Source of the DNA: Pomacea canaliculata
Lineage: Eukaryota > Mollusca > Gastropoda > Architaenioglossa > Ampullariidae
Direction of reading: 5' to 3'
NCBI RefSeq assembly: GCF_003073045.1
Contig: NC_037596.1
Span: 10,785,950-10,849,949, forward strand
Length of the DNA stretch: 64,000 bases
The stretch's first letter is position 1, and every line of letters starts with the position of its first letter. The position numbers were made by a program, and so were the translations under genes. The notes under the pieces were generated by a model. The model made no database searches. It was not told the DNA's origin and worked only from the letters and a program-made list of their open reading frames with translations. Positions 1-64,000 of this stretch are shown in pieces.

Positions 1-3000
1 AGTCCGATACACTCAGGTTAGTAACAAATACCCCGAATCCAGACACAGACTGGCGCCTGTGATAAAACTGCTGAAATAAAAAACTGCCGACATTTCCTGA
101 TATCGACAAAACACAAAACACCCATAAGAATATCCGGTACACGTCAGATCGTAAGAGGTCGTCGCAAGACGAAATTTCATCTTGTGGGGCAAAGCAGGAT
201 TCGAGGCCAAACAGTTCTGGGAGATTCTTCTGGCAACAGAACTTATAATTATCCACATACACCGCACTGAGATACCTAGCGGCCGTCAACACTTCTTTAG
301 GAAATACCGATAAAGAGTTTTTTCTCGCATCGAGTTGTGCGAGTCTGGAGAGGTAATCAAACTTACTTTCTGTAATAGTTTCTATATTATTAAAAGATAT
401 ATTCAAAAAAACAATATTTGGAAATTCCAGAAATGCTTTACTGTCAAATGTGTTTAACAAGCACGTAGATAAATCAACAGCCTGAAGGTTAATATGATAG
501 GGACTGAAGCCGTCGTTTGTTAACGTGGTGAGGGGGTTACCTGCCAAGCGCAAAACTTTCAGATTTTGCAATAAACGAAACAAACTTAAATCGACGGTGA
601 TTATTTTGTTGTAGCTAAGATCCAAAACCTGAAGGTTTGGAAGTTCAATGCTGGAAACATTTGTCAAACTACAAGAGGAAAGACATAACCAGATAAGATA
701 AAAATTAAATTGTACGTCATTAACTGTCATACCTGAACCTGTGGCATCTAAGAAGCGCATTTGCAGATAATCTTTGGCTGCGAACGATTTGGTACAAACA
801 AACGCTAAGCCCTGACAGACGCACGCATCAGGACAGCGCAGTCCACAGTAAGTCTCGTCGTCGTGTTGCGGACACTGTGGCCAGCCGTCGCACACGTTGT
901 CGGGATGAACACAAACACGTGATCCACGACAGCGATAGAAGCCCGGACACGTGTATCGCTGACAGTCCTCCTCGTCCTCGTGGGAGGGACAGTCGTACAC
1001 ACCGTTACAGCGCACGTACACGGGCAGACAGTAAGCCGACTCGCCTGCACACCGGAAGTGCGTTTGTGGACATGGCTCAGAAGATGGTATAGGTGCTTGG
1101 TAAAACTCACCTTCACCGTCGAAATAAACAACAGCTGGTGCAAACAATCGTTGCTTTGGTGGATACTCGTAGAAAAAAATAGACGAACAGTCTTCGTCGG
1201 ATCCATCCCAGCAGTCCTTGTACAAGTCACAGTAATATTTATTTGCAATACACTGACCATTACGACACGAGAACTCGTGGCACTTCTGTTTGTGTTTGCA
1301 AAAGTTTTCGTCAGATTCATCCAAGCAGTCAGACCTAAAGTCACACACTAGAGTGTAGGGGAGTATGGTGACTTGATCGTCACAGCGGAACATCTCTGTT
1401 TCTTCTCCAGTAATAGTTTTACACAGGAGGGCAGTTGCTGTTGCCCGGCAGTAGCTGTTTGGATCACACGATAAGAAGGAATGCGTCACGTGACCTCCCG
1501 CACATTGTACGACAGAGACATATTTGCGGTTATGCCAAAGCATCATTGGATTATCAAATGTGGGATATACCACCTGCTTTTGCTTTATGGGTATTTGAAG
1601 CTTTACGCGATATTCACAAATGAAACTTTTTATTATAGGGTTACGCATTCCAGAAGAACAGAACGTAAAGGCATAGTGAACTGGTAAAAACCACAAACAT
1701 CACGTGATTGCCCCAAAAAGAAATCCTGCGTGGTGTTGGTTTCGTAAGACACTGTGCCGTCTGCCCACATCAGCGCGTACTTGTAGTATTTTGGCCAGTC
1801 TGTTCTAGATGTCCGCAGACCGATCATAGCCATGCTTAGTCTTTTTCCATATTGGAAAAGCTTTACAAATGCCTTCCATTCCTCTCGTGATTTCATCGTC
1901 GCAAGATGGCCTCCTCTCTTCTTACACTTCTCTTCTGACGAGCGGGCTGAGACTACCTCTAAGGTGTGTACGTTCTCATAACATTTGTCACCCACGGCAA
2001 CAGAGCCATTGCAGGCGAGACTGCTGAAGACGCAATGGGGTCCCTCATCCTCCCCGCCGTCGCACTCGGCTTCCAGATTGCACTCCAGGTGTTGTTTAAA
2101 GGTGTTGTAATTAGGTACTGAACAATCCCACAAACCGCTGGTCAGCCTTCGTGGTGCTTCCGGTGAAGGATGAAAAGAAAAATATATTTTGAAGCCGGTG
2201 ATCGTAATCGATCGTCTTTTTTGTAGATGCAGCAATATGTTCGATTGGATGAATGTTGGCCTTTGTCTTGTCCGTTTACTATTCCTAAGTTCGCTAAGGA
2301 TCCGTCGTCATTGATCTTGTACATCTTGAGCTCAGGGGTCCTACATAAGATAAACTATTTACACTAGTGTAGACAGCCGCGAAGCTGATCATCATCACGT
2401 GACCTTGTGGAGCAATGATTAGACGTGTTGCGTTTGTACCACACGGAAATTCAAGCCCCTTTTCAAACCCATATGACGTCACGTAGCCGGAGCTTGGCGA
2501 AGTATACGTTATAGGAAGCGAGTGTAAAACTCTTTCGGTGAGTGGAACTGCTTGGAACTGCACTATGAACTCAATCGAGCGAGACGCATCTTCCAAACTA
2601 TCACTAAAGAGGAAAAGCTGCTGATTGGAGCCACTGAGGGCTAACGTGGGATTTATCTTCGTATCTTTACAACTAAATACTTTCTGTTTACAACCTTCCG
2701 AGTCATTGATAACAGTAACTGTGACGTCAAGGAAGCAGGGATACAAACGAAAATGTACAGAGCTTGACGCTTGGTAGCCATCAGGGCCCCGCACTGTCCA
2801 GCTACACTCAGTAATTGTTCTTGAGAGATTTCTTCCTCCCGACTTCACGTGGATCTCTCCTGTCTCACCAGTAAAAATAATGACCTTTGCGCCAGCACAC
2901 TCCATGATGCTGATGTCGAATGAAAAAATCATTCCAGTATTAACATACTCACTGCTGGTCGTAGTGTGATCTTCACTGTTTAACTGCCGTGTGTTAATCG

Positions 3001-3273
3001 AGACCTCAGTATGCTCATCAGTTTGATGGGTATAGCGAAAGTCATTGGACGTAAAATGAAAAAGTTCGATGTATTTTCTTAGAGCTTGATCATTTTGAAA
3101 ATAGGTATTTATTGACTGTCGGAGTTCTGTACTCGTTTGCAGTGGAGAAGAATGTGTACGAGGCAGAGAGAAACTGAATGTGCACATTGTGAGAAACAAT
3201 GTTCGTAGTAAGTGGTCGAAGGGATTTATGCACTTGTGGATAATATCGCAACTAATGTTAACTTCGATTTCAT
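1..3273 (-). pseudogene. Receptor copy A1: GRL101-like CUB/CTLD/LDLa/LRR GPCR, 3'-truncated by window edge, frameshifted
   Basis: This is a paralogue of A2 and A3, read from the ATG at 3273 down to the window edge, which falls in TM2; TM3-7 and the tail lie outside. Visible in order are a signal region, two CUB-like segments (the second contains TYTSPSSGYVTS), an LDLa-like WDCSVPNYNTFKQHLEC module, a CTLD with MIGL and WADG, four LDLa modules with acidic (D/E)xSDE-type ends, LRRs and the start of 7TM. Compared with its paralogues it has four 1-base deletions, near 3237 (just after the start), 2336, 2261 and 1637, mostly in G or C runs. The frame is open from 1632 to position 1; I read every codon. 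Because of the first deletion, the conserved ATG yields only about 15 codons. An upstream ATG at 3313 is in frame with the body but gives a different N terminus. It could be a pseudogene or a consensus-error artefact. It pairs head to head with B1. Confidence 0.85.
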
Positions 3274-4429: not shown

Positions 4430-4540
4430 ATAACGACAGAACTGTGGACGCAGTAGCAAGCCTCGTCAGACGTGTGACTTTATAGTCGCCTTAAGGAGAC
4501 GGTTTCTAAAAAAGTCAGCCACGCCCTAAGTGATGATGTG
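4430..4540. promoter_or_regulatory. Conserved spacer block (CTTAAGG / CCACGCCC), unit 1
   Basis: This block keeps its order and wording in all three type I spacers: a CGTCAGACGTGTG-like segment, then CGCCTTAAGGAGACGGTT, then GTCAGCCACGCCC. The matching blocks are near 19900-20010 and 36280-36390. The final element resembles a GC/KLF-type box. A role as a shared enhancer or core element is inference from conservation only; recent duplication could also explain the similarity. Confidence 0.35.
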
Positions 4541-5067
4541 GAATTATGCTGGTAATCTGAACCTTTTAAAATTTCTTCACTCAAAGATGTTCATTACAAT
4601 ATCTCATCGTAAGCAGTGTAATAGTGGAATGAAATATTGCATAAAAAGATATTTTGAAATAAGTAATCTCCATTGTTTGAGACAATTTATCAAAAAGGAA
4701 ATAGAAAAATTGACTGGAAATTTTAAGCTCCCGTTTCTTAAAAGGAACTTAGACATAGCAAAATGTATTTATGTCAGGATTCAAAAAAGCGTTATTATTT
4801 TCTCGTAAAAAATATCTATAAACGTGTATATAAATTACACTTTTAAAATAAAAAATGATAGAAAATGCGAACATTAAAATACATTAAAAAAACAATTTTA
4901 GTTAAAAATTTTGCAAAAAAAATTACAAAATATAATGCACTTAAATTTATTTTAGTAGAAAAAAATCTGGTGAAAGACTTTAAAAATCTGATTATTTACA
5001 AAAGAGACATTTTTGTTGGCATCGTACAAAACAAGTACACGACAGCTACGCACAAAATATTACGCCT

Positions 5068-5153: not shown

Positions 5154-8100
5154 ATGACATCACTTCTGCTGTTATTTTGGGTGTGGAGCTTTTCTCTCGT
5201 GACATATCTGCACTCTTTTGATGATAGGTCCATACAAAGATTGTACAATGTCACGGAAAATGCCTCCTGGAGTTTAACCGAAAACACTTCAAGCTTTGAT
5301 TCTACAACTGTAGATTCCTCTTTCAACTTTGTTCATGACAGCAGCACATCACGTGACACGGACACATCTTTAATTGTGAATGATAAGGTTACTTTCCGAA
5401 ATTATGACGACTACACTGAAAACATAAGCGACGAGGAGACGATTTATTATGTGACAGTGAATGAGTGCTTAGAGAACAAAATCCTGAGTTTTTCATCAAG
5501 ATCGGGCATCGTCCGCGGTGTTCACATGACAGAGACACTAAACATAACTAATGATGAAAGTTGTATACTGAGTGTTTCTGTTCCCAAAGGCCCGTATATA
5601 GAGGCTACTTTTGAAAGCTACATCAGCTTGTTGAGCGAGAAATTGATGCTCAGATGTGCTGAAGATATCGACTTCCTAGAAAAAAGAGAGTCCTTACTGT
5701 ACGTCCCCGCATATGAGCCCGTCTTCTTATCGGGGGAAGAACAGCTTTACTTTCAAATTGCAATTACTGTGATTCCAGTATTTGAAATTAGATTTACATC
5801 GAATGAAGAAGATTCGAGAACATCACTTCCGATCGTGTACACGTCACCGTTGTCCGGTTACGTAACGATAAGACTGTTCAGAGACAAAAGGAGACAAGCA
5901 CTTCTACCGAATGCGTCTCGCGTCATAGACGTTCATCCAGGTCAAGAGGTCATGATCAGTTTTTCTTTTGTCGACTTTGAAGGCTATATACTTAATGATT
6001 GTCATTTACAAATATTCACAATCAATAATGATGGAAATCTTTCAATGCACATGGATATCACCAGGAGCTTAGTTATGCCTGCGTTGGTGTTCAATCAGTC
6101 GCTTCAGATAAGGTTCATCTTTGAGTCTCCATCGTCTACACGTCGAGGGTTTAAAATGTTATTCTCGTTACACAATCTGTCAGAAATTCCTAGTAAATTG
6201 GAGAGCGGGCTGTGGGATTGTTCCGTACCTGTCTACAACTCCTTTAAGCAGCACCTGGAGTGTAACCTGGTGCCGGAGTGTCATGGAGGGGAGGACGAAG
6301 GAGCGCACTGTCCTTACAGCAGTCCCGCCTGTAACGGCTCTATTGCCGTAGGTAACAAGTGTTATGTCGTCTTGAGCTGGGAAGAGGAAGTTCTGTGGCC
6401 GATGGCGAGTAAATTGTGCACAGATAATGGAGGTAACCTGGCAACTGTAAAAACAAAGGATGATTTGTATTCCCTTAGGAAGATAGACAAATTTGCAAAG
6501 GTATTAGCAGATTTTCACATAGGACTCACTACCTACCAGCCACCTTTGCCTTCATTGTACAAAAAAACTTTGATTTGGGCGGACATGACTATAGCCTACA
6601 GTTTTTCGTGGTTTTTTCAAAGACGCATTTCTATTAATACAATGAGCAAACTTTGTTTTCATAACTCTTACAGAAATGAATACGTACTTGAAGGCCAGTG
6701 CTATGGATACGAGATTTTTCTCACACTGTGTGAGTTTGCTTTAGACGGATATCAAACGAAAAACAACGTTCTGGTATCTTCCTTTGATGCTGATTTCGTT
6801 ACTGGAAATGACAGCCTCTATGTCGTTTGTCCAGAAGGCCACTTCACATACAACTTCTTGTCATGTGATAAAGCCAGCCGTTGTGGTGCAGCAAATCTTC
6901 CTTTACGCTGTAAAACTCAACCAAAGAGTTCGGGGTCGTCTATTGTCACTGAGATGTTTCTCTGCTCCGACCAAACACGCACCTTGCACTACACTCTGGT
7001 TTGTGACTTCAAGCAGGACTGCAACGATGGATCTGATGAAATGTTTTGCACACGAAGTCAGACGTGTGACGGGTACCAGTGTCAGAACGGTCAGTGTATT
7101 CCACTCGACAAACTCTGTGACGTAGAAAACGACTGTTGGGATGCTTCCGACGAGGACTGCGATCAGTTCCAAGAGTGGTACGTGTCTCTTACTAATCACA
7201 TTGATCCCCCTGCTGTGATCAATTTTGAAAAGGACGGTAACTTAACGTATAAGGCACTTAGTGTCTTCGAATCTTGCCCCGAAACTCACTTCCGGTGTCC
7301 TCCTGACGGCTACTGTTTGCCTGTGTACGTGCGGTGTAACGGCGTGTACGACTGTCCAAACCGGGAAGATGAGGCGAACTGCCAGGTGTACACGTGTCCA
7401 GGTTTCTACAGGTGTCGCGCCTCCACCGTGTGCGTGCACATTGACCACATGTGTGACGGCCGACCACAGTGTCCACAACACGACGACGAACTGTTCTGTG
7501 ACCTCAGATGCCCACAAGGCTGTGTGTGTCAAGGTCTTGCATTTCTTTGCTCAGAAACATTCGACATGCAGAACGTTCCTGCCCTGCGTTATTTAGATGC
7601 TAGAGGGAGCGGTTTGTCAACAAAAGATTTGTCTCCAACAATTTACCTCGCGTGGCTTAGTCTCGCAGCTTGTAATCTGCAAGTTCTTTATAATATATCG
7701 CTTCCTACTCTTCAAACACTTGACTTGAGTGACAACCTAATCAGCTGGTTAGACATGTCGTATTTCATGCGGTTTGAAAATCTCCGCGTTCTTCGTCTAG
7801 CCGGGAATCCATTGCAGTTCTTGTTCACAAGTTACACAGAACCACAACATTCCCCTTTGACGTATCTCGACCTTTCGCGAACGTTGCTGAAAGTGTTTAC
7901 GGGAGAGATGTTGAGTAGTTTTTCCGCCATACAGGTACTGAATCTGTCCATTAGCTGTCTTACAGAACTGCGCTACGACAGTTTTTATTACATTCAAGAT
8001 GTGACCCACCTGGATCTGTCCAAAACACAAATCAGAAGAGTGCACAACGACACGTTCAAGCATCTGAAGTCTTTAAAAGTCCTACAAGCGAGCTCCTACA

Positions 8101-9101
8101 AGCTTTGCTGCCACGAACTGCTGCCAGACCTCGCCCACGAAGTGATGTGTTTCTCACCGGATGACATTTTTTCGTCCTGCCAAAATCTGTTGCGTTCAAA
8201 GACTGTTTTTGCTTTCTTCTGGGCTTTATGTGTTGTTTCTTTAACTGGGAATGTATATTGTATTGTGCATTCTGAAATCAAGAAGAAGGAAAAGCACAGA
8301 TCCGTCTTTAATGTCTTGATGATTAATCTGCACGTGTCCGACTTTCTCACCGGCACGTACATGTTAGTGATAGGGGTGGCTGACGTGGTGTACCGAGACC
8401 GCTATTTGTGGTATGAAGAAGCATGGACGGGAGGATGGTTGTGTCAGATGTCCGGCCTCGTGTTCTGGGTGTGCGTGGATGTGTCTATCATAACCTTGAC
8501 GGCCATCATAGCAGAACGTCTTATCGTCGTACGGTCTCCTCTCGATTTTTCTCTGCACGGCAAATCCTTGGTTACAATCTGTTGCATCATCTGGTTGCTT
8601 GCTTTAGTCTTTGCTGTTTTGCCCATTCTTTGTACGTGGCAGTGGCAGTTCTATGGGCAGAACTCAGTTTGTCTTCCTTTACCTGTCTTCGAGAAAGATT
8701 ACAAAGGCTGGGACTACGTCTTCGTACTGATGCTTTTTCGCCTCGTCCTGACTTTAGTTGCTGGAGTTTGTCATGCATTCAGCGTGTGTACCTTGCACCC
8801 TAGTGAGATCTCTGCAGTCATGGCATTGAAAAGTGAAGAGATGGCGCTGGCTCGACGAGTTACTGTTCTTATCGTGACAAAAATTCTTAGCTCTTTGGTT
8901 ACCAGCGTGTTTGGTGTAATGTCAGAGACAGCTGCTGTCATTGCAGGTGTACTCATCCTGTTCGTTCATACTATTAATGCGTCTTTGAACCCTTGGCTTT
9001 ACATCGTTAATGTTTTTCTGAAAGAAAGAAGAGATTCTGCGAAAGGTCGTATTGTGAAAGTTCTACGATCTCGACTAAGGGTGTCTCAGAAATGTGTCTG
9101 A
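5154..9101 (+). CDS. Receptor B1: intact GRL101-like CUB/CTLD/LDLa/LRR seven-TM receptor
   Basis: This is an intronless frame of 1,315 codons and the only undamaged full-length copy here. I start at ATG 5154 (A at -3, followed by MTSLLLLFWVWSFSL, a signal peptide); upstream in-frame codons start only with GTG, and B2 and B3 share this ATG. Approximate residues: Ser/Thr-rich N-glycosylated stretch 25-100; CUB-like 105-172 and 225-303; LDLa-like 352-385; CTLD 392-529 (HIGL, WADM, no EPN/QPD); LDLa 601-633, 638-669, 707-743 and 747-783; LRR N-cap from 785 and about seven LRRs to 980; C-cap 982-1010; 7TM 1016-1290 with ERL in place of DRY, NPWLY in TM7 and no CWxP in TM6. The order LDLa-LRR-7TM matches Lymnaea GRL101 and relaxin-receptor-like (type C LGR) receptors. 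Expected at the cell surface; the ligand is unknown. An AATAAA occurs at 9807-9812. Confidence 0.93.
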   Translation: MTSLLLLFWVWSFSLVTYLHSFDDRSIQRLYNVTENASWSLTENTSSFDSTTVDSSFNFVHDSSTSRDTDTSLIVNDKVTFRNYDDYTENISDEETIYYVTVNECLENKILSFSSRSGIVRGVHMTETLNITNDESCILSVSVPKGPYIEATFESYISLLSEKLMLRCAEDIDFLEKRESLLYVPAYEPVFLSGEEQLYFQIAITVIPVFEIRFTSNEEDSRTSLPIVYTSPLSGYVTIRLFRDKRRQALLPNASRVIDVHPGQEVMISFSFVDFEGYILNDCHLQIFTINNDGNLSMHMDITRSLVMPALVFNQSLQIRFIFESPSSTRRGFKMLFSLHNLSEIPSKLESGLWDCSVPVYNSFKQHLECNLVPECHGGEDEGAHCPYSSPACNGSIAVGNKCYVVLSWEEEVLWPMASKLCTDNGGNLATVKTKDDLYSLRKIDKFAKVLADFHIGLTTYQPPLPSLYKKTLIWADMTIAYSFSWFFQRRISINTMSKLCFHNSYRNEYVLEGQCYGYEIFLTLCEFALDGYQTKNNVLVSSFDADFVTGNDSLYVVCPEGHFTYNFLSCDKASRCGAANLPLRCKTQPKSSGSSIVTEMFLCSDQTRTLHYTLVCDFKQDCNDGSDEMFCTRSQTCDGYQCQNGQCIPLDKLCDVENDCWDASDEDCDQFQEWYVSLTNHIDPPAVINFEKDGNLTYKALSVFESCPETHFRCPPDGYCLPVYVRCNGVYDCPNREDEANCQVYTCPGFYRCRASTVCVHIDHMCDGRPQCPQHDDELFCDLRCPQGCVCQGLAFLCSETFDMQNVPALRYLDARGSGLSTKDLSPTIYLAWLSLAACNLQVLYNISLPTLQTLDLSDNLISWLDMSYFMRFENLRVLRLAGNPLQFLFTSYTEPQHSPLTYLDLSRTLLKVFTGEMLSSFSAIQVLNLSISCLTELRYDSFYYIQDVTHLDLSKTQIRRVHNDTFKHLKSLKVLQASSYKLCCHELLPDLAHEVMCFSPDDIFSSCQNLLRSKTVFAFFWALCVVSLTGNVYCIVHSEIKKKEKHRSVFNVLMINLHVSDFLTGTYMLVIGVADVVYRDRYLWYEEAWTGGWLCQMSGLVFWVCVDVSIITLTAIIAERLIVVRSPLDFSLHGKSLVTICCIIWLLALVFAVLPILCTWQWQFYGQNSVCLPLPVFEKDYKGWDYVFVLMLFRLVLTLVAGVCHAFSVCTLHPSEISAVMALKSEEMALARRVTVLIVTKILSSLVTSVFGVMSETAAVIAGVLILFVHTINASLNPWLYIVNVFLKERRDSAKGRIVKVLRSRLRVSQKCV

Positions 9102-14477: not shown

Positions 14478-17400
14478 CTAAGAGGCAGAGCTAACGCAGC
14501 TGTCAGACGTGGAAACGTCGGCTGATTTGTGCACGTTATTCCAAGGCTGCTGTGCTTCCAATCTTCTTATCATGCTCGCCTCCTCTGCTTGTTTCCACTT
14601 CTCTAGCACAAGGTTAAACGTGTAAAGGAAAGGATTCAGCGACGCATTTAAAGGCAGAACAAAGATAACCATGAACACACTAAATTCGCCGGGGACGGCA
14701 ATTCCTGATGCCGCCATAATGCTGACCATTCCTATTGGGAACCAGCACAGGAAGTCAGATACCACGACAGTGGCCAGGCGGCGTGCTATGATAATATCTT
14801 TCGATTTCTTGGTCGTACTTTCTTTCATGGAATTCAATCGTACTGACCGGTAGATGCAGACCTGACCCACTGCTATGACCAAAAACAGTATCATATTAAA
14901 AACGATCATAACTCCGAAAGAGTAATCGCGACCTCCAAAATGTTTTCTTGTTATTGGCAGTGGTATGCAAATACCATTTTGACTATAAAACTCCCACTCA
15001 GAGAGGAATGGTAAAAAGGGAACAGCGGCCAGTGTGAACCCTACAGCCCAAGCAAGTCCACAAGCCCACGAGGCTGACCAGCTCTCAAAGCGGAATTTGC
15101 TAAATGGAAAGCGGAGAACGATAAAACGGTCGATGGTGATGAGACAGATGATCAAAGTCGACACCTCGCTGGACATGAGAGACACAAAGCCGGCCACTTT
15201 GCACGTCGTGCTGACTTTCCACTGGACATCGTTCCACAAGTAGGTGGAGCGATAAGTTTCATCCGCACACCCGACTATGGCCAGGTACACGCCCATCACG
15301 AAGTCAGATACACTCAGGTTAGTAACAAATACCCCGAATCCAGACACAGACTGGCGCCTGTGATAAAACTGCCGAAATAAAAAACTGCCGACATTTCCTG
15401 ATATCGACAAAACACAAAACACCCATAAGAATATCCGGTACACGTCAGATCGTAAGAGGTCGTCGCAAGACGAAATTTCATCTTGTGGGGCAAAGCAGGA
15501 TTCGAGGCCAAACAATTCTGGGAGATTCTTCCGGCAACAGAACTTGTAATTATCTACATACACCGCACTGAGATACCTAGCGGCCGTCAACACTTCTTTA
15601 GGAAATACCGATAAAGAGTTTTTTCTCGCATCAAATTGTGCAAGTCTTGGGAGGTAGTCAAACCTATTTTCTGTAATAGTTTCTATATTATTAAAAGATA
15701 TATTTAAAAAATTAATGTTTGGAAATTCCAGAAATGCTTTACTGTCAAATGTGTTTAACAAGCACGAAGACAAATCCACAGCTGAAGGTTAATATGATAG
15801 GGACTGAAGCCGTCGTTTGTTAACATGATGAGTGGGTTACCTGCCAAACGCAACACTTTCAGATTTTGCAGCAAACGAAACGAACTTATATCGACGGTGA
15901 TTATTTTGTTGTAGCTAAGATCCAAAACCTGAAGGTTTGGAAGTTCGATGCTAGAAACATTTGTCAAACTACAAAAAGAAAGACATAACCAGATAAGATA
16001 GGTATTAAATTGTAAGTCATTAACTGTCATACCTGAACCTGTGGCATCTAAGAAACGCATTTGCAGATAATCTTTGGCTGCGAACGATTTGGTACAAACA
16101 AACGCTAAGCCCTGACAGACGCAGGCATCAGGACAGCGCACTCCACAGAAAGTCTCGTCGTCGTGTTGCGGACACTGTGGCCAGCCGTCGCACACGTTGT
16201 CGGGATGAACACAAACACGTGATCCACGACAGCGATAGAAGCCCGGACACGTGTATCGCTGACAGTCCTCCTCGTCCTCGTGGGTGGGACAGTCGTACAC
16301 ACCGTTACAGCGCACGTACACGGGCAGACAGTAAGCCGAATCGCCTGCACACCGGAAGTGCGTTTGTGGACATGGCTCAGAAGATGGTATAGGTGCTTGG
16401 TAAAACTCACCTTCACCGTCGAAATAAACAACAGCTGGTGCAAACAATCGTTGCTTTGGTGGATACTCGTAGAAAAAATAGACGAACAATCTTCGTCGGA
16501 TCCATCCAGCAGTCCTTGTACAAGTCACAGTATATTTATTTGCAATACACTGACCATTACGACACGAGAACTCGTGGCACTTCTGTTTGTGTTTGCAAAA
16601 GTTTTCGTCAGATTCATCCAAGCAGTCAGACCTAAAGTCACACACTAGAGTGTAGGGGAGTATGGTGACTTGATCGTCACAGCGGAACATCTCTGTTTCT
16701 TCTCCACTAATAGTTTTACACAGGAGGGCAGTTGCTGTTGCTCGGCAGTAGCTGTTTGGATCACACGATAAGAAGGAATGCGTCACGTGACCTCCCGCAC
16801 ATTGTACGACAGAGACATATTTGCGGTTATGCCAAAGCATCATGGGATTATCAAATGTGGGATATACCACCTGCTTTGGCTTTATGGGTATTTGAAGCTT
16901 TACGCGATATTCGCAAATGAAACTTTTTATTATAAGGGATACGCATTCCAGAAGAACAGAACGTAAAGGCATAGTGAACTGGTAAAAACCACAAACAGCA
17001 CGTGATTGCCCCAAAAAGAAATCCTGCGTGGTGTTGGTTTCGTAAGACACTGTACCGTCTGCCCACATGAGCGCGTACTTGTAGTATTTTGGCCAGTCTG
17101 TTCTAGATGTCCGCAGGCCGATCATAGCCATGCTTAGTCTTTTTCCATATTGGAAAAGCTTTACAAATGCCTTCCATTCCTCTCGTGATTTCATCGTCGC
17201 AAGATGGCCTCCTCTCTTCTTACACTTCTCTTCTGACGAGCGGGCTGAGACTACCTCGAAGGTTTGTAAGTTCTCATAACATTTGTCACCCACGGCAACA
17301 GAGCCATTGCAGGCGAGACTGCTGAACCCGCAATGGGGTCCCTCATCCTCCCCACCGTCGCACTCGGCTTCCAGATTGCACTCCAGGTGTTGTTTAAAGG

Positions 17401-25604: not shown

Positions 25605-25606
<2 letters not shown>

Positions 25607-48975: not shown

Positions 48976-51900
48976 TTAATCAACATTATTTATTAAGATA
49001 TCTTGCCCTGGAACGTCAAAGGACCTTAATTTTTGCCTGTGTGACGACAGATGTGTTTTCAAACTTTCCATTACTCGTGCTTCTTCTGCTTCTCTCCACT
49101 TCTCTAGCACGAGGTTGGACGTGTACAGAAAGGGATTGAGGGACGCATTCAGAGGCAGCACGAAGATGACCATGAATACGCTGACCTCACCCGGAACTGG
49201 GATTCCCAAACTTGCCATGATGCTGACCATACCAATTGGAAACCAGCACAGGAAGTCAGACACTACGACAGTGGCCAGGCGACGAGCTATGATAATATCT
49301 TTCGATTTTTTTGTGGTGTTTGCTTTCATTGAATTTGCTCGGACTGACCAGTAGATGCAGATCTGACCCACTGCTATGACGATAAACAGGGCCATGTTGA
49401 AGATGATCATAACTCCAAAAGCATAATTGCGACCTCCAAAAATCTTTCTTGTTGTTGGCAGCGGAATACAAATACCATTTTGACTATAAAACTCCCACTC
49501 GGAGAGGAATGGTAAAAGGGAACAGCGGCCAGTGTGAACCCTACAGCCCAAGCAAGTCCACAAGCCAATGAGGCTGACCAGCTCTCAAAGTGGAATTTAC
49601 TAAACGGAAAGCGGAGAACGACAAAACGGTCGATGGTTATGAGACAGATAATCAAGGCCGACACCTCGCTGGACATGAGAGACACAAAGCCGGCCACTTT
49701 GCACGTCGTGCTGACTTTCCACTGGACATCGTTCCACAAGTAAGTGGAGCGGTAAGTTTCATCCGCACCCCCAACAATTGCCAGATAAACTCCCATCAGG
49801 AAGTCCGATACACTTAGGTTAGTAACAAATACCCCAAATCCAGAGGAAAGATGACGCCTGTGAAAAAACTGCCGGAATAAAAAACTGCCAACATTTCCTG
49901 ATATCGACAAAGCACAAAACAACCATAAAAATGTTCGGTATATGTCAGAACGCAAAAGGTCGTCGCAGGACGAAATCTCATCTTCTGGAGCAAAGCAGAA
50001 TCCCATATCAAATAAGTCTTGGAAGGTTCTGCTTGCAGCAAAGTTTATAATTATCCGCAAAGACCGTGTGAAGGTTTTGTGCGTTACTCAACACTTCTCT
50101 AGGAAATATCTTCAACGAGTTTTTTCTTACATCGACTTGTGCAAGTCTTGGGAGGTAGGTAAACTTATTGTCTGTAATAATTTCAATGTCATTTAAAGAC
50201 ATATTTAGCGAATTAATGTTTGGAAACTCAAGAAATATTTTACTGTCAAATGTAGTCAGCAAGCATCGCGACACATCCAGGCTCTGCAGATTAGCATGAT
50301 TTGGAGTGAAACCACTGTTTATTAACGAGACGATAGGGTTTCCAGCTAGGCGCAAACGTTTCAGATTTGTTAATAAATGAAAAGTACTTAAATCAACAGC
50401 TAATATTTTATTGTCACTAAGATCCAGAACCTGAAGATTTGGAAGCTCACTGTAATCAACATTCGTTAAACTACACGAGGCTAGCGATAACCAAACAAGA
50501 TAAGAATTAGAAATCACATCATAAAGAGTCATGGTTGAGCCTGTTGCATCTAAGTAACGCATTTCATGGTAATCTTTTGCTATGAAAGATCTTTCGCAAA
50601 CAAAGGCTAGGCCTTGGCAAAAACAGACATCAGGACAGCGCAGTCCACAGAACGTCTCGTCGTCGTGCTGCGGACACTGTGGCCAGCCGTCGCACACGTT
50701 GTCGGGATGGACACAAACACTGGATCCACGACAGCGATAGAAGCCCGGACACGTGTATCGCTGACAGTCCTCCTCGTCCTCGTGGGACGGACAGTCGTAC
50801 ACACCGTTACAGCGCACGTACACGGGCAGACAGTAAGCAGACTCACCTGCACATCGGAAGTGTGTTTGTGGACATGACTCAGAAGACGATAAAGGTATTT
50901 GATAAAACTCACCTTGTCCGTCAAAATAAACCACAGCTGGAGCAAACAATCTTTTCTTTGGTGGATATTCGTAAAGGAAATCAGACAAACAATCTTCGTC
51001 GGAACCATCCCAACAATCTTTATACAAGTCACAGGAATATGTATTTGGAATGCACTGTCCGTTACGACAAGTGAACTCTTGGCACTTACTATCGTGTTGA
51101 CAAAAATTTTCGTCAGACCCGTCCAAGCAGTCAGGCCTGAAGTCACACACCAGAGTGTAGGGCAGTATAGCGAGATGGTCGTCGCAGACAAACATTTCAG
51201 TCTCCACGGAAATTCCTACACTATTTCTAGTCATGCAGGAAGCAGATAGCTTTGTTCTCCCACAAAATGATTTCACATCACACAGAGAAAATGTGTGCGT
51301 AACGTGACCTCCAGGACACAGCACGACAGACACATTTTCAACTCTTTTCCAAAGAGTCATGGGATCTAAGATATCGGGGAATATAATTTGATCTTGCATG
51401 GTCACTTGCTGATGAACGACATACTCGCAAATGGTGCTATCAACTAATGAGTTTGCACATTCCACGAGAATAACACGCATAGGACGAACATATTCGTATG
51501 AGCCACAGACACGCCTAGAAAGTTCTTAGGAAATACTCCTGCGTGGTGTTGGTTTCGTAAGACACTGTGCCGTCTTCCCACGTTAGCGCGTACTTGTAGT
51601 ATTTTGGCCAGTCTGCTCTAGATGGCCGAAGGCCGATCATTGCGGTGCTTAGTCTTTTTCCATATTGGAAGAATTTTAGAAACGCAGCCCATTCCTCTAG
51701 AGATTTTATAGTCGCTATATAACCTCCCCGTTTTCTACATTCTTCGAACGTACCCCGGGTATATTGTACATACTCGTAACATTTGTTACCCACGGAAACA
51801 GAGCCGTTACAGGCGGCACTACTATAAGTACAGTGAGGTCCTTCGTCGTCTCCTCCTTGGCACTCCGGCTCCAGGTTGCACTCCAGGTGTTGTCTAAATG

Positions 51901-53048
51901 TGTTGTAATAGGATACAGAACAATCCCACAAGCCGCTAGTCAACATTCTTGGGGCCTCAGTTGTAGGTGAAAAGAAAAAAGCATCTTAAATCCGCCATCG
52001 TCGCGTGGAAGCTTTGCTTGTAGATGCAGCAGTAGACTTGTTTCAAGAAAGGTAGGACCTTTAAATATCATATACTATTTCTAAACGTTTTAAAGACCCG
52101 GTCTTGCTGACATTGTATAAGGTCAGCACAGAAGCAGTTTTTATTCCAAGATACACTAGCGGAAAACTTATCATCATCACGTGACCCTCTGGAGCAACGA
52201 TGTGGCGCGTAGCGTTTGTACCACACGGAAACTGTATCCCATCTTCAAACCTATATGACGTCACATAGCCAGACTTTGGGGAAGTAAACGTCATTGGAAG
52301 TGTAAGTAAAACGTTGTCATTTACTGGGACAGCTTGCACCTGAACTATAAACTCAACCATGCGATGTGCCTCCGTCAGATCGTCGGTAAAACTGAAGATT
52401 TGCTGATTAGAACCACTGATAGCTAAAGCAGTGGTTGTTGTTGGAAGCTTACACCAGAATAATAACTGCTCACAGCCTTTGACATTATTGAAGACAGTTA
52501 CCCTGACATCTGTAAAGCACGTATTCATGCGAAAGTTCACTGAACTGGACGCCAGATAACCATCAGGTACCCTAATAGTCCACTGACACTGAGTTTTGTT
52601 CTAGTGCGATTATCTCCTCCAGACCTGCCTCGGATCTGACCTCTGACACTAGGAAAATGAAAGACCTCGTTGTCTGAGCATTTGTTGATGTCCATATAGA
52701 AAATGGGTGTTTCGTTATAATGGGAATTGCTTTCCTGGATTGAGGTCTGTATGTCACTAATAATGCTCGATTTTACTGTGACATTCACATCTCCTGATTG
52801 TATGGTTTGCTTAGTGCCTCCAAGAGTGATACTTAAGTTTTTTAAGTAAGTATCTGGCATTCAAGAGTAGTCATTTGAAAAATTTTGTTTTGAAAGTGAG
52901 TGGTCTGTGGCTGGCTGAGCCATTCGGATGCTTTCGTTGTCGAACCTTCAACAGCAAGCGAGGACAGATGAATTGCCCAGATTGTTAAAACCAAACGACG
53001 AATGTGAGTACACAATGCCAAACTCTGATGTGCTGAGGCCATGATCAT
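48976..53048 (-). pseudogene. Receptor copy A4: diverged type II GRL101-like receptor with seven indels
   Basis: I start at ATG 53048 (or 53042), giving MIMASAHQSLALC and a hydrophobic RRLVLTIWAIHL signal segment; the earlier in-frame codon is GTG. Module order is as in A1-A3 but divergence is much greater: the N-terminal 110 codons are unalike, while the LDLa, LRR and 7TM parts are recognisable. DRF, CWFP and NPFLY are retained, and the tail ends INNVD instead of SSAS. Indels by comparison: deletions near 52865, 52602, 51972 and 49517; insertions near 52066, 51527 and 50023. The longest open piece is 50008-51480 (490 codons, LDLa plus LRR). Removing each single base restores family residues exactly, so the damage is young or artefactual. 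Divergently paired with B4. Confidence 0.83.
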
Positions 53049-54687
53049 TTTAGAGAAGAAGATTCCTAAGCATGGATTCGAGTGTACAAATACTTTTTTT
53101 ATCACATGACTTCAAAGAATTTCATGTTCTTTACATTTTAATCTGGACCCTCTTGTACGTTCAATCGATTATGCGCCAAAAACTCTTCGTTTACTAAATC
53201 TGCCTTTCCAAGGATGAAATACCCCATCCGAATCAACCTTCCTCTTTTTGTCTATATTTTAAGCTAAAAGAGGCATCTCTTTGTCAGCCATGCACTTGAA
53301 TTCTTACTTATTTATCGAAACTCAAGTGATCGGTGCTGGAATTTCTAATAGTTGATTTTCACGGCATTCCAGCGGAAAGATTATTTATTTTGTCTTTTAG
53401 ACTTTCGGGAGTAAAAACTATTATAGTCTTAATTGAAATAATGAGAGTTTTAGTGGAATCTGTAAAACTACATGCACTCTGTTATACCTCCAAGGATGAC
53501 GGTTAACTATAATTTACGTGTAGTCTAGTTAATTCACTAGTACAAAACACATCGTGTGCAGCAGATGATTGTTGATCATCCCTCCTACATCGCTCGTGAT
53601 CTGCTTCTTACACCTGCGTGAAGTGAGCACAGCGAAGTTAATAAGAGGAAACACAAACACACACACACGAAAAGAACACTCCTATACTCTAGTCACTGAT
53701 TAGCCTCTAGATCATCGAGGTTGTCCTAGTGATTGAGAAAAACTCGGCAAAATAACCTGTGTTTAGTGTTAAGCACACCACGCAGTTTCTACGCTAATCA
53801 GTGTCTTTGTGTGTCCCTAAAGCCCTTGATAGTCGCAAGAAATCAAGAACTCAAGAAATGTCACCGCCACAAAGTACCCAAGTCGCCGTAACGCTGTTAA
53901 GAAACACGAACAGAAAAATCGGCAGGAAAGAGAAAAGGCGATAACAGCCCTATTGATTACTCGTGATGTGCATTTCACAGTGGATGTCTTAGAAAAACAT
54001 ACGATTCTGAGAATGTTAAATTTATATATTCGTCTTCAAGCTTAAAACTCATATCTCAAAAGCGAACCGCGCCCTGTGCGACTATATTGACTTATTGTCG
54101 CGGTGTTTAATCGTCTAACAAAAATGTTTTTATACGTTCATGACAGATAATAACTCTCACAGCTCACATCGTGGATTTAATATTTACAAACAGTAAATAA
54201 TTAAAATATAGAGAATTTTAATATAGTCTATATATAATATTTAAGTATCTTTACATACTTAATAATAAATAAATGCGTTAAGGAACTGTCCTTAAAGTTT
54301 TCAAGTTTACTGTTTAAAGTAGTGAGTTCTCTCTTACTTCATCTCTATAATTTGTATACTATTTATCAATTTGGGCATTTCTTATTTTCCAGAAGCGTTA
54401 TTGCCGTTATTTCTTAGATATGAAAAATTGTTAGGTATTTGATTTTATGTCTAGTGAACTTTCTCCCCAGCTTTATGTAGACGTATATCCATTAACATAA
54501 ATCCTTTGCGTGCTTGTGATTTTGTTGCACGTGTATTTCGTAATTTTTCTTATTGCTGTTCTAGTCTTCATCCTAAAGTAAAGCCAACTTCATTAACTAA
54601 AAGTTGGATGGAAAAAAAAAATGTCGGAAACATTTATGGTATCGTGTTTCATTAAAAAAGAGTAAAAGTGACATGTTAAAGACATTA

Positions 54688-55242: not shown

Positions 55243-58200
55243 ATGACAATGACTACATTAAAAACAAAATTCCCTTGGAATGGCTCTCAATTAGTACTGT
55301 CGATACTGATTCTTTGTCTAGAGTTGAGTTTTTTTACTAACGAGCACGCAAGTTGTTCGACAGTGAGCTCTGTGACCGCACAGGACAAGGTGAACCAAAA
55401 CGCATCTTTCACTTCCATCACTCAACGTATGCAGCTCGTTTCAACCAATCAATTTCTGGACTGATCGTCTTCCCCTTGTATCTACTAAAAGTCAGATTGT
55501 GCTTGACTCGACCCAAGGCACCATCGTTTCAAACCACACTTTCACATCGCAGTACAATGCTGAGACAAGTGACAATGTAAAATATACAAGGTGACAGCTG
55601 ATATGTGTTTGAAAAACTATTTGTTAAATTTTTCATCACCATCTGGCATCATACGTGGTCTGTATTTCGCAGAAAAACTCAACATCACTAGTACCAAAAG
55701 TTGTATACTTCAAGTTTCTGTTCCTCAAGGTCAGTACGTTCAAGCTACCTTTGACAGCTACAGCAGCGAAATCTTTACGTTCCACATCTCAGAAGATAGT
55801 ACTTTCAAACAAACAACAACTGTCAACTCACTGGATGTATACATGCCCCTATATTTATCTCGGTGGAATCAGCTTTACTTCCGAGTCCCGATAGCCATAG
55901 TAGGAATCCCAAGTTTCGAAATCAGATTTAAATCCAACAAAGAAGATTTGCGACTGTCACTTCCAATCGCTTACACGTCGCCTTCTTCTGGTTATGTCAC
56001 AACGTGGGGATTTGAGGAAAACAGAAGACAGGCACCCTTTGCTAACGCTTCCCGCGTCATAGACGTTCATCCAGGTCACGTGGTCATGATTAGTTTTTCA
56101 TTTGTGAACTTGTTTCAAAAATACAGCGACTTTTGTCCCTTTCTCAATATACAACTGTACGCAATCGAAGGTGATGGCAGTCTCTCGATGCAGATGAAAA
56201 TATGCATGAATACAGTCACACCAGCTGTCATATTTCAGCAATCGGTTAAGGTTCAATACTACTTTAAAATGACATACTCACAACAAGGATTCAAGATGTT
56301 ATTTTCTTTCCACAATACATCGGAAATCCCGAGTAAAATGAGCAGCGGGCTGTGGGATTGTTCCGTGCCTTTCTACAACACGTTTAAGCAGCACCTGGAG
56401 TGTAACCTGGTGCCGGAGTGCCATGGAGGAGAGGACGAAGGAGTTCACTGTCCTTACAGCAGTCCTGCCTGTAACGGCTCTGTTGCCGTAGGTAACAAGT
56501 GCTATGTTGTCTTAAGCTGGGAAAATTACGTTCTATGGCCGATAGCGGCCAGTAAACTTTGCATAGACAGGGGAGGTCACCTGGCTACTTTCAAAACAAA
56601 GAAGGATTTATATGACATCCGGAAGATTGACAAGTTCGCAAAGATGGCTGCAGATTTTCACATAGGACTCACTATACCAGTCATCTTTGCCTTCATTGTA
56701 CAAAAAAACCTTGACCTGGGCAGACATAACTGTGGCTTATGATTTCTCTTGGACCTTTAAAGCGGTTGTTTCTCTTAATTTACTAAATAAACGTTGCTGG
56801 TTTAATCGCTATGGCAGCGGTTACTTCTTGGATGGCTACTGTAACGCGTATGACATGTCTTTAACACTCTGTGAGTTTGTTTTAAAACAATACAAAACAG
56901 AAATAGGCGTTTCACTATTTTCTGTAAATGTTGATCTTATTATTAGAAATGACAGTCTCTATGTCATTTGTCCAGAAGGCCACTTTACATACGACTTCTT
57001 GTCATGTGATAAAGCCAGCCGTTGTGGTGTGACGAATCTTCCATCGCTCTGTAAAACCAACCGAAGAGTTCAGTATCGTCTATTACCACTGAGATGTTTC
57101 TCTGCTCCGACCAAACACAAACTTTGCACTACACTCTGGTTTGTGACTTCAAGCAGGACTGCAACGATGGATCTGATGAAACATTTTGCACACGAAGTCA
57201 GACGTGTGACGGATTCCAGTGTCAGAACGGTCAGTGTATTCCACACGATAAACTCTGTGACGTAGAAAACGACTGTTGGGATGTTTCCGATGAGGACTGC
57301 GATCAGTTCCGAGAATGGTACGTGTCTCTTACCAATCACATTGATCCTCCTGCTGTTGTTAATTTTGACAAGGACGGTAACTTAACTTATAAGGCACTCA
57401 GCGCCTTCGAATCTTGCCCCGAAACCCACTTCCGGTGTCCACCTGACGGCTACTGTTTGCCTGTGTACGTGCGGTGTAACGGCGTGTACGACTGTCCCAA
57501 CCGAGAAGACGAGGCGAACTGCCAGGTGTACACGTGTCCAGGTTTCTACAGGTGTCGCGCCTCCACCGTGTGTGTGCACGTTGACCACATGTGTGACGGC
57601 AGACCACAGTGTCCACAACACGACGACGAACTGTTCTGTGATCTGAGATGTCCTCTAGACTGTCTGTGTCAGGGTCTTGCATTTGTGTGTTCAACCGCAT
57701 TTAATATGAAAAACTTTCCTGCCATTCGTTATTTAGATGCCAGAGGTTCTGGAATGACAGCATCAGACATTTCACCTAGCATTAACATCATCTGGCTCTG
57801 CCTAGCATCATGTAAGTTGAGTGTACTTTCTAACTTGTCCTTCCTAGTCTTCAAACTCTTGACTTAAGTGACAACCTTATCAGCTGGCTTGACCTGGTGT
57901 TTTTTATGAACTTTAAAAATCTCCGCGTTCTTCGTCTTGCTGGAAATCCTTTGAAGTCCTTGATTGCGAGTGACACGACAGGATATTCCCCACTGACTCA
58001 TCTTGACATGTCACGAACGTTGTTGAAAACCTTTGCTGGTGAATTGTTTTCAAACTTCCCTAGAATCAAAGTAATGAATCTGTCATTCAGTTTACTCACC
58101 TATTTAGGTAATGAAAGTTTCTACAACACTCGAGATTTGACTCATTTGGACTTGCGCGGAACACGAATAAGAGGGATACACAACGACACTTTCAAGAATC

Positions 58201-59281
58201 TGAATTCTTTGAAAACTCTTTACGCTAGCTCCTATAAACTTTGCTGCCAGGAACTACTGCCAGACCTTGATGATGAAGTACTGTGCTCTGCGCCAGGTGA
58301 CATTTTTTCATCCTGTGAGAATCTCTTGCGTTCAATGAACACATTTGTTTTAGTCTGGATTCTCTATGCTGTATCGTTTGTTGGGAATCCTTACTGCATT
58401 ATGTACTGCGTGGTGCGACAGAAAGAAAAAGTAGTAAGTCTTTTTGATGCTTTGATGATTAATCTTCAAGCATCTGACTGTCTTGCCGGTATTTACATGC
58501 TGGTGATCGGGACGGCTGACGTGGTGTACCGGGAACGCTATTTATGGTACGAAGAGACATGGACAGGTGGATGGCTGTGTCAGATGGCCGGCTTCGTGTC
58601 TTGGATGTGTGCAGACGTCTCCACCTTAACCCTTGCTGTAGTTATAACAGAACGTCTTTTGTTTTACGGTTTTCAATTCCCTGTTTAACTGTTAATGTAA
58701 AATCTTTAGTGACTGTTTGCTGCAGTATCTGGTTTTTGGCCTTTTGTTTAGCTGTTTTGCCCATTTTTTTAACAGAAACCCAGTTTCAATTCTATGGGCA
58801 AAACTCAGTTTGTCTTCCTTTACCTGTTTCTGAGAAAAATTTTAAAGGCTGGGACTACGTCTTATTTCTGCTTTGTTTACGCCTCGTTTTGAGTCTGGCG
58901 GCTGGATTGTGTCATGCTTACAGCGTGTGCACAGCGTATTCCAGCCAAGAGACAAATATTAAATTCAAAGAAAGAGCGCTAGCTCGCCGGATAAGTCTGC
59001 TTCTTGTGATAAAAATAGGCTTTTGTCTGGTCATCGGCGTTGCAGGCGTTATGTCAGTTATGGGATTTTCAATACATGTGGACGTAGTCGGTGGTCTCAC
59101 ATTGTTTGTTTATTCTTTGAACGCGTCGATTAATCCATGGCTTTACAGCCTCAACGTTTTACTGGAGAAAAGACAAACCTCATCACGGGACCGCTTACTG
59201 AAGATCTTTGAATCTCGAAGCTTAAGTTCTCAAAAATCTAGTTTGTCCTCCATATCAAGTTCTTTGCAAAGCTCCCAATGA
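55243..59281 (+). pseudogene. Receptor copy B4: diverged type II GRL101-like receptor with six frameshifts
   Basis: Start is ATG 55243 (or 55249), leading into a hydrophobic SQLVLSILILCLELSFF signal; earlier in-frame starts are TTG. Modules follow B1: CUB-like pair, LDLa (WDCSVPFYNTFKQHLEC), CTLD, four LDLa, LRR and 7TM. Frame changes lie in 55350-55463 (insertion, exact place unclear), near 55589 (deletion), 56675 (2-base deletion), 57056, 57838 and 58664 (deletions). Motifs: ERLL for DRY, NPWLY in TM7, and no CWxP in TM6 (KIGFCLVIGVAGVMS). The tail is Ser-rich and ends SLQSSQ. The absence of CWxP, shared with B1-B3, shows that this loss predates the type I/II split. Confidence 0.82.
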
Positions 59282-62200: not shown

Positions 62201-63186
62201 CCCTGAGGTACAGCTTATTTCGCGTAAGAGATTCATTAAAACTTACAGCAGGGTATGGGGAGCTAACAATTTATATTAATATGTCTCTAGTCGTTCCTGT
62301 CGGCTTAAAATCAATAGTCAACATTTATGTACACAACTTGTTATAGCAAAAGTACAGCATTTTAGTCATCTGACGGCAAGAAAAACGCTCCATGACTTAA
62401 GCTTTCGCAGATTTTTAAGTAAGTTTGGCCACGACGGAAAATTTTAACTGACAGATATCAGAGATCGCTAATGCACACCTATTTATTTTATGTCATAATG
62501 ATAGTTATCTTTAATTTTACGGACTCTTTTCTAATATAAACGAAATGAAACCGAATCTTCTGAAATGATCAGAGAAGAAATCAAAAAGCACACAATGCCA
62601 CAGATGCAATGTCCGTTATGGTTAGAGAACATCCACACCCACCCATCAACACAGAAAGAAGAGAGAAGAGAGAGATAGAACGCATTCAATAGAAGTAATG
62701 CAATAAAAGTCGAATTTAAATACATCACAACCCTTCTGCTTCTCGATCATTTCCAACAATTTTCTTCAGTTTCTTTAGAAATAATCGCTGGAGAATTTTA
62801 AAAAATTAGCTCGGATGAAGTGATCACAATTTTACAGTAAGCTAGCCTCGACTTTATAAACAGAGTAATATTTTTACACTTTCAGAACAACACACGCACA
62901 CGCACGCGCGCGCACATACAAGCACGCACAAGCACGCACGCTCACACGTGCGCGTTTTACTCATTGTGAAATATTGTACACATAATGATTTGACAAAAAA
63001 GTAATTTTTTCATCTTTTTTTTTTTTTGTTCCGTTTTTATCCTTTGTTGTTTTAATTTGGTCATGTAAACACGCCGAGCAGTCCCTTGAAGTGACAGCTG
63101 GTAAAAAGAGTGGGACGGTCAAGAATAAAAATGACTAACACATCTTCCATCGCATCCGGTAAACATCCTACGTAGGTTCTGCTCTT
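59282..63186. repeat. Type II spacer between B4 and A5
   Basis: Convergent spacer, homologous in blocks to 43901-48975. It contains a CA/CG microsatellite at 62889-62956 and poly-T near 63016-63030. A 67-codon frame at 60868-61071 with a hydrophobic centre has no recognisable domain, and I could not match it in the paralogous spacer. No gene is supported. Confidence 0.5.
62889..62956. repeat. CA/CG-rich microsatellite
   Basis: Impure ACACACGCAC / GCACGCAC alternation over about 68 bases, similar in type and relative place to 46531-46572. Confidence 0.8.
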
Positions 63187-64000
63187 CTAATCGACATTAC
63201 TTATCGAGGTATCTTGTCCTGACATCTCACAGACGTTTATCTCCTGCCTCTGTGATGAAAGCTGTGTTTTCAAACTTTTTAACAGACGTGCTTCTTCTGC
63301 TTCTCTCCACTTCTCTAGCACGAGGTTGGACGTGTACAGAAAGGGATTGAGGGACGCATTCAAAGGCAGCACGAAGATGACCATGAATACGCTGACCTCA
63401 CCCGGAACTGGGATTCCCAAACTTGCCATGATGCTGACCATTCCAACTGGAAACCAGCACAGGAAGTCAGACACTACGACAGTGGCCAGGCGACGAGCTA
63501 TGATGATATCTTTCGATTTCTTAGTGGTGTTTGCTTTCATTGAATTTACTCGTACTGACCAGTAGATGCAGATCTGACCCACTGCTATGACGATAAAGAG
63601 GGCCATATTGAAGATGATCATAACTCCAAAAGCATAGCTACGGCCTACAAAAAAATTTCTTGTTATCGGAAGCGGAATACAGATGCTATTTTGACTATAA
63701 AACTCCCACTCGGAGAGAAATGGTAATAGAGGAACGGCCGCCAGTATGAACCCAACAATCCAAGCAAGTCCACAAGACCATGAGGCCGACCAGCTCTCAA
63801 AGTGGAACTTGCTAAACGGAAAGCGGAGAACGATAAAACGGTCGATGGTTATGAGACAGATAATCAAGGCCGACACCTCGCTGGACATGAGAGACACAAA
63901 GCCGGCCACTTTGCACGTCGTGCTGACTTTCCACTGGACATCGTTCCACAAGTAGGTGGAGCGGTAAGTTTCATCCGCACCCCCAACAATTGCCAGATAA
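63187..64000 (-). CDS. Receptor A5: C-terminal 7TM part of a type II GRL101-like receptor, 5' part outside window
   Basis: A frame enters from the right edge in the TM2-TM3 region (LAIVGGADETYRSTYLWND) and is open to the stop at 63187, about 270 codons. It contains the TM3 end with DRF, the second extracellular loop with SQNSICIPLP, CWFP in TM6 and NPFLY in TM7; the tail ends ISNVD. It is closest to A4, sharing SMKANTTKKSKD and ASLGIPVPGEVS, so it belongs to the type II set. No frameshift is visible in this part. By pattern, a B-type partner should lie beyond the window about 4-5 kb further right. Confidence 0.9.
   Translation of the reverse strand, partial: YLAIVGGADETYRSTYLWNDVQWKVSTTCKVAGFVSLMSSEVSALIICLITIDRFIVLRFPFSKFHFESWSASWSCGLAWIVGFILAAVPLLPFLSEWEFYSQNSICIPLPITRNFFVGRSYAFGVMIIFNMALFIVIAVGQICIYWSVRVNSMKANTTKKSKDIIIARRLATVVVSDFLCWFPVGMVSIMASLGIPVPGEVSVFMVIFVLPLNASLNPFLYTSNLVLEKWREAEEARLLKSLKTQLSSQRQEINVCEMSGQDTSISNVD

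Follow-up and report, generated by a model that had tools for sequence, protein, structure and literature searches.

A window of 64,000 nucleotides of the genome of the gastropod Pomacea canaliculata (contig NC_037596.1, here C7; C7:10785950-10849949) lies in an array of receptor genes of two classes, named A and B, which are arranged head-to-head in pairs; at least 19 such pairs occur in the genome, every B-type gene found stands beside an A-type gene, and the two classes differ consistently in the seven-transmembrane (7TM) part, where all B genes lack the CWxP motif of the sixth transmembrane helix (TM6). The A/B arrangement is real: an ordered, genome-wide system of two receptor genes, based on a receptor type already known. 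Joint function of A and B is the best-supported explanation, and we infer it from the pattern of sequence constraint; in the form favoured here, to which roughly an even chance is given, each A/B pair would encode one two-part receptor, A being the transducing and B the co-sensing half. The array had been described in an earlier note, made from the letters of the window alone; that observation is confirmed and is stronger than first stated.

Head-to-head pairs in the array and across the genome

Open reading frames (ORFs) and tblastn alignments give the array order A1B1 A2B2 A3B3 A4B4 A5B5, that is, five complete head-to-head pairs with the A genes on the minus strand, the B genes on the plus strand and strict alternation throughout (Table 1). 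The nine alternating genes listed in the earlier note are all present, and B5 adds a tenth; the proposed B starts hold as well, a B1-like frame beginning at 5154, 20634 and 37036 and an ATG standing at 55243. Compared in blocks of 300 bases, the array yields four recurrences with identity up to 98%, far beyond chance. In flanks of 50 kb, retrieved to the left and to the right of the window, tblastn (threshold 1e-5) detected no additional array copy within ~49 kb beyond A1 or ~40 kb beyond B5. Since the array opens with the tail of an A gene and closes with the tail of a B gene, leaving no orphan, the repeating unit is the head-to-head, and not the tail-to-tail, pair.

The genome (440,159,624 bases in 24 contigs) was searched with B1, the main A3 frame and the A2 7TM part, and later with a B 7TM and the N-terminal parts of the pair on C6. 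With the first three queries 18 B-type genes came to light, all of them having an A-type gene as head-to-head neighbour: five in the array, 12 elsewhere on C7 (9.72-11.12 Mb) and one on C6. For an A gene that had appeared alone at C7:8352108, the B 7TM search matched C7:8359921 (58% identity), which gives the nineteenth head-to-head pair. Among the matches listed, all 19 B-type genes are head-to-head with A, the pairs being spread over two chromosomes and occurring in either orientation, and 19 of 20 A-type genes are paired, these counts being lower bounds (at least 19 pairs); the exception is a 459-residue LRR-7TM fragment at C6:20308416. The B class is clear-cut in the 7TM search, B-type 7TMs being at least 42% identical to the query and other matches at most 38%, and the N-terminal queries from the C6 pair gave no extra A or B locus. 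A and B are therefore distinct classes and the pair is the unit of duplication, as the earlier note had it, with the pairing recurring well outside the window.

Several other loci were observed in the course of these searches. The unpaired fragment (L043; C6:20308416-20309791) is a lone A-like LRR-7TM sequence close to the C6 A gene, and no credible B alignment was obtained on the minus strand of the sequence read in its surroundings. At C6:19366300-19373100 (L044), two genes of CUB/lectin type stand head-to-head with ~1.3 kb between their open frames and with CACGCCC, the spacer motif treated below, between them; their N-termini are about 28-35% identical to A/B, and from the N-terminal parts read they are at most candidates for a further A/B pair. 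A cluster of CUB-lectin-LDLa-LRR-7TM relatives at C6:27939816-28065580, all but one on the minus strand among the matches listed, contained no B-type gene among those found, and the TM6 of the one that was read (L036) has CFFP. Finally, a large GRL101-like LRR-7TM expansion, with many open frames of ~700 amino acids, is present at C11:10.60-10.99 Mb, C14:3.96-6.96 Mb, C2:3.29-3.64 Mb and elsewhere; among the 96 matches listed for the A2 7TM, inspected by eye, no divergent neighbours as tight as A/B were seen, the closest (~18 kb) being on C2.

Shared modules, co-inheritance and unequal halves

B1 consists of a signal-like start (judged by eye), two CUB-like regions, an LDLa, a lectin-like region, four further LDLa, LRR and a 7TM without the TM6 CWxP. 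In Pfam, LDLa (1.1e-21, four stretches), LRR_8 (7.1e-16) and 7tm_1 (4.7e-18) are recognised in B1, and LDLa (3.4e-18, five stretches), LRR_8 (5.5e-13) and 7tm_1 (1e-24) in the A gene of the C6 pair, so that LDLa, LRR and a rhodopsin-type 7TM are combined in one protein in A (C6 pair) as well as in B (B1, C6 pair). The ectodomains of A and B have the same, alignable modules, A too showing a CUB/lectin-like front followed by LDLa, LRR and 7TM. The front modules are less easily recognised, and the CUB and lectin fold calls are made from sequence profiles only: a Pfam scan of the whole of B1, run to E 1, matched neither CUB nor lectin; Lectin_C matched 5 of 13 N-terminal fragments from the window (best 0.00076, below the Pfam curated cut-off), the region being clear when a profile of the window sequences was compared with CD93 lectin-domain chains (7.8e-7); CUB is weak in A/B, CUB_2 alone matching 2 of the 13 fragments (best 0.00018). 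The related gene C28 (C6:27995400-27999900), whose open frame comprises at least 1387 amino acids and which can be aligned with A/B across all modules, has a strong CUB match (1.3e-15, two stretches), and CUB-like region 2 of A/B is 32-33% identical to that of C28. Of the module composition given in the earlier note, LDLa, LRR and 7TM are thus strongly supported, the lectin-like region weakly by Pfam and clearly by profile, and CUB weakly in A/B themselves.

The histories of the two classes run in parallel, at least recently. Distance matrices of A and B are closely correlated over the 19 pairs (Mantel r 0.956, equalled in 0 of 20000 permutations) and over 11 pairs, one per recent clade (r 0.891, 6/20000); the maximum-likelihood (ML) trees of A and B have 11 of 16 splits in common, and {2,3} in B (support 97) is the sole split supported at 95 or more in one tree and missing from the other. 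Recent co-inheritance of A and B is firm. In the array, copies 1-3 are close to one another (synonymous divergence, dS, 0.08-0.13) and copies 4-5 form a second clade (dS 0.13 for A4/A5, 0.43 for B4/B5), the two clades being separated by a dS of about 0.9-1.0 in A as well as in B. The dS of A4/A5 is far below that of B4/B5, which points either to later conversion of A or to unequal histories inside one pair clade. Conversion between A and B was considered and rejected: A-B identity within a pair and between pairs agrees within ~2 points in every domain, with no homogenisation inside pairs; A-B differences at fourfold sites are lower around the LDLa regions.

In an ML tree of the 7TM part, A and B each form a clade (support 100 for both), and C28 and the five GRL101-like genes sampled fall together with A (95); the A2 7TM is ~50% identical to many GRL101-like genes of the genome. 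The B clade is placed outside A and the GRL101-like genes; its branch is long and the outgroup distant, so that the position of B is uncertain. The nearest solved GPCR (G-protein-coupled receptor) is RXFP1, matched by the A2 7TM part at 5.5e-52 and by the whole of B1 at 1e-32.

Alignment of the 7TMs with RXFP1 (18 pairs, the nineteenth being added after its locus had been fetched) separates the halves sharply. The CWxP motif of TM6 is a mark of signalling class A GPCRs; it is present, within SDFLCWFP, in all 19 A genes and in none of the 19 B genes (two of which have a frame break beside the motif), and all 19 B genes carry a lysine at the site of an aspartate in A and RXFP1. The TM6 proline is kept in the five sampled GRL101-like genes, in C28 and in RXFP1; since these outgroups vary in the tryptophan and keep the proline, B is marked by loss of the proline and gain of the lysine, not by loss of the tryptophan. 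Constraint differs accordingly in the same part of the protein, the ratio of nonsynonymous to synonymous divergence (dN/dS) of the 7TM being 0.16 in A and 0.38 in B, with B above A in 7 of 7 independent comparisons of recent copies; in the ectodomain no difference is seen (0.37 in A, 0.35 in B), the CUB-like 2 (0.55/0.40) and lectin-like (0.48/0.45) regions being among the highest. Between the array and 13 other pairs, identity of the 7TM is 79% in A and 40% in B, and that of the LRR 50% in A and 60% in B. Such unequal constraint is to be expected if one half transduces and the other faces the ligand, but it is no proof of this.

Loss of the TM6 switch from every B gene, together with loss of the arginine of the third transmembrane helix (TM3) in two of 19 and an ectodomain still under constraint, would also fit a B that acts as a decoy or brake, binding the ligand or A, unable to switch, and damping or gating A, in which case loss of B would raise signalling. 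Among plant NLR pairs there are some in which one partner represses the other (PMC9528088). A soluble or single-pass decoy would, however, be simpler, and the 7TM of B is still under purifying selection (dN/dS 0.38); this role for B is rated as rather unlikely.

The spacer element and the state of the reading frames

The modelled divergent starts of the 19 pairs lie 1597-3017 bp apart, an overestimate where frames extend upstream. Bidirectional promoters have starts under about 1 kb apart; the single promoter shared by each pair, as proposed in the earlier note, may exist and is a candidate only. A short motif, CACGCCC, occurs in 12 of the 17 fully read spacers, always on the strand reading from A to B and at 0.34-0.70 of the spacer length. 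It was present in 11 of the first 16 whole spacers; the seventeenth, fetched after the motif had been defined, also contains it, in the same orientation, and in two further spacers, partly read, no CACGCCC stands in the parts read. In 12 spacers representing the lineages it is the 7-mer of largest excess (8 of 12, versus 0.15 expected), and its longer forms (9- and 10-base) exceed all of 60 shuffled sets: GGCACGCCC is found in 5 (shuffled maximum 3) and GGGCACGCCC in 4 (shuffled maximum 2). Of the five spacers lacking the exact motif, two (A4/B4 and C7 10.98 Mb) contain, close to the middle, a form with one mismatch, and in the spacer at C7 10.91 Mb the motif is present in a different surrounding sequence. 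An extended pattern, SCACGCCCWAAR, has 115 sites in 440 Mb, versus 109 for a control pattern, and 8 of 100 listed sites fall inside A/B spacers, all in matching orientation; as the pattern was built from A/B spacers, its presence there is partly by construction and it serves to show rarity. Another enriched spacer word, TAGAAATAGT, was dropped, its positions being scattered and at the very end in two spacers; the A coding sequence was also discarded as a source of CACGCCC, the same-strand copies that exist there having different contexts. The motif resembles a KLF/Sp-type box, and one may guess that it is a candidate enhancer-like element shared by both genes.

Length range and oriented element in the spacer argue against an account in which A and B are linked without joint function, one ancient back-to-back event having been followed by duplication of the unit, with A and B binding and signalling (or failing to) independently. 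The pairing of 19 out of 19 B genes found argues in the same direction, as the divergence among B copies reaches about half of the residues and free birth and death should leave lone B genes. That account is nonetheless served by the recent copies, which are clearly unit duplications, by the weakness of deep co-branching, and by the ML tree of the 7TM, whose placement of B outside A and the GRL101-like genes would allow B to be an old, separate receptor type; it is judged unlikely, though it is a serious competitor.

Each gene was modelled from an alignment of the copy with a relative, made by a program that tolerates frame shifts. The genes read in the earlier note are there, but eight of the ten array genes have interrupted frames (32 small frame breaks in total, none of the eight having a premature stop), and only B1 (1315 amino acids) and B5 (1377 amino acids) are open over the whole model. 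Decay of the array, with most copies pseudogenes and few working pairs, might be read from these breaks, which number 153 in the 38 modelled genes of the 19 pairs, six of them fully open (both C6-pair genes included). Against this, only two in-frame stops occur in the 38 genes, set beside an expectation that 4.7% of single-base changes would create one, and pairwise dN/dS within the array is 0.23-0.39, although ancestral selection would mark young pseudogenes alike. Several breaks fall in single-base runs; the assembly was made from PacBio reads with short-read correction, at a heterozygosity of 1-2%, according to its description (PMC6129957), and near-identical copies may remain poorly corrected in such an assembly. 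Wholesale decay is very improbable, and the breaks in the array are probably for the most part consensus errors among near-identical copies.

Table 1. Receptor genes and spacer motifs of the array, in window numbering (gene coordinates are alignment-based, with approximate N-termini)
Feature	Position	Strand	Remarks
A1 receptor gene, GRL101-like	3214 to -763 (1..3214 inside window)	-	crosses left edge; 3 frame breaks, no stop
CACGCCC, A1/B1 spacer	4520..4526	+	
B1 receptor gene	5154..9101	+	intact single ORF, 1315 amino acids from first ATG
A2 receptor gene	14478..18521	-	5 frame breaks, no stop
CACGCCC, A2/B2 spacer	19990..19996	+	
B2 receptor gene	20634..24583	+	7 frame breaks, no stop
A3 receptor gene	31416..35451	-	2 frame breaks, no stop
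CACGCCC, A3/B3 spacer	36367..36373	+	
B3 receptor gene	37036..40991	+	1 frame break, no stop
A4 receptor gene	48976..53048	-	7 frame breaks, no stop
CGCGCCC, A4/B4 mid-spacer	54068..54074	+	one-mismatch form; spacer position 1020
B4 receptor gene	55243..59281	+	6 frame breaks, no stop
A5 receptor gene	67307 to 63187	-	3' part 63187..64000 in window; 1 frame break, no stop
CACGCCC, A5/B5 spacer	68457		right of window
B5 receptor gene	69520-73653	+	tenth of array, right of window; open frame

Between B1 and A2, an ORF at 13366-13764 (-) bears a weak resemblance to the dimerisation region of hAT transposases (Pfam 0.0059, short of the cut-off), and a short tandem repeat at 28697-28765 (period 31, 2.2 copies) lies within an ORF that has no Pfam match; the nine tail-to-tail ORFs gave no above-cut-off Pfam match, and Rfam gave no match anywhere in the window.

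A two-part receptor among known systems

According to the two-part reading, transduction would fall to A, a GRL101-like GPCR whose class A switch motifs are intact and whose 7TM is strongly conserved, and B would be a co-receptor with a like ectodomain (two CUB-like regions, LDLa, lectin-like, LDLa and LRR), whose 7TM, its TM6 switch lost, would serve mainly as an anchor and dimer partner. The CUB and lectin-like modules, which evolve fast, would most likely be those that touch the ligand, in a heteromer in which only A signals. The head-to-head order would be kept because both genes must be made together, the oriented mid-spacer element probably serving both A and B in their co-expression, and duplication of the pair as a unit would give rise to new two-part receptors. 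The likeliest use, to judge from the architecture and from Biomphalaria, would be recognition of parasites or microbes.

A number of observations weigh against this reading. Unit duplication by itself keeps two genes together for some time even if they have no joint function, and among the 19 known B genes the B 7TM search missed three (B2, B4 and that at C7 10.98 Mb), so that a lone broken B could escape it. On nine non-array lineages the Mantel test yields a weak correlation (r 0.464, reached in 602 of 20000 permutations); A and B show correspondingly weak co-branching at depth, and old partner swaps are possible. With regard to the 7TM, the CWxP tryptophan is changed in four of six genes (the five GRL101-like genes and C28: CKFP twice, CRFP and CFFP) that presumably signal, the TM3 arginine is kept in 17 of 19 B (it is lost at C7 9.72 and 10.27 Mb), and NPxxY is kept in 16 of the 18 B read, so B may still signal. 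The ectodomains of A and B are on one plan, with no obvious sensor-only domain. As for the spacer, exact CACGCCC is absent from 5 of 17, and among 7-mers with 4 or more G+C, the one most frequent in each of the 60 shuffled sets occurs on average in 5.3 and at most in 8 of 12 spacers; since the shuffles also reach 8 of 12, the bare 7-mer count is not decisive.

The closest relatives in architecture are found in other snails. GRL101 of Lymnaea reportedly goes back to Tensen (1994). It shares with A/B, as do related LGRs, the LDLa repeats, LRR and rhodopsin-type 7TM; it has twelve LDLa (PMC8286064), versus the 4-5 marked by Pfam in A/B, and its proposed ligand is IGF-like (PMC8286064). A peptide-hormone role is accordingly an alternative to immunity. 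Relative to GRL101, A/B have CUB and lectin-like modules in front, and B lacks the TM6 switch. In Biomphalaria sudanica, the schistosome-resistance locus SudRes2 contains twelve clustered GRL101-like genes, ten of them with all modules, which, like A/B, join C-type lectin-like, LDLa, LRR and 7TM in one protein (PMC12297450); the lectin-like front end, which the earlier note did not know to be described, was therefore already known. The words CUB, head-to-head, orientation and strand are missing from the main text, and unlike A/B, neither a two-class split nor a degenerate partner appears in the parts of it read (PMC12297450). The SudRes2 receptors are tied to schistosome resistance (PMC12297450); for A/B a like role may be conjectured.

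In function the nearest analogy is with the plant paired NLRs (RRS1/RPS4), which are likewise head-to-head, coevolving pairs with specialised partners (PMC9528088); they are, however, unrelated intracellular proteins in which one partner carries an extra integrated domain (PMC9528088), A and B both having the same modules. Co-dependence of the partners belongs to the plant pairs; for A/B, linkage and co-inheritance are what is found. GABA-B receptors consist of two related 7TM proteins, GB1 and GB2, one of which couples to the G protein; these differ from A/B in being class C GPCRs, and they are not known as a multicopy, co-duplicated gene pair. In the literature searched, which covers few subscription journals, no report of head-to-head GRL101 pairs was recognised, and we know of no rhodopsin-type two-part GPCRs encoded as co-duplicated divergent pairs. 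It may be proposed, tentatively and with rather less than even confidence, that the A/B genes correspond, in an animal, to the paired immune receptors of plants, with at least 19 co-inherited head-to-head GPCR pairs in the genome, each encoding a two-part recognition receptor with one transducing and one switch-dead half, under the control of one oriented spacer element, and multiplied as a unit.

Obligate two-part GPCRs are rare, and the A/B pairs offer a natural series in which binding and signalling could be assigned to one half or the other and the upkeep of partner specificity studied. Annotation that splits A from B, or discards them over their broken frames, would miss a two-part system. 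If the connection with the lectin-bearing GRL101 receptors of a snail schistosome-resistance locus is borne out, the pairs would be a candidate multicopy recognition system in gastropods that are carriers of human parasites.

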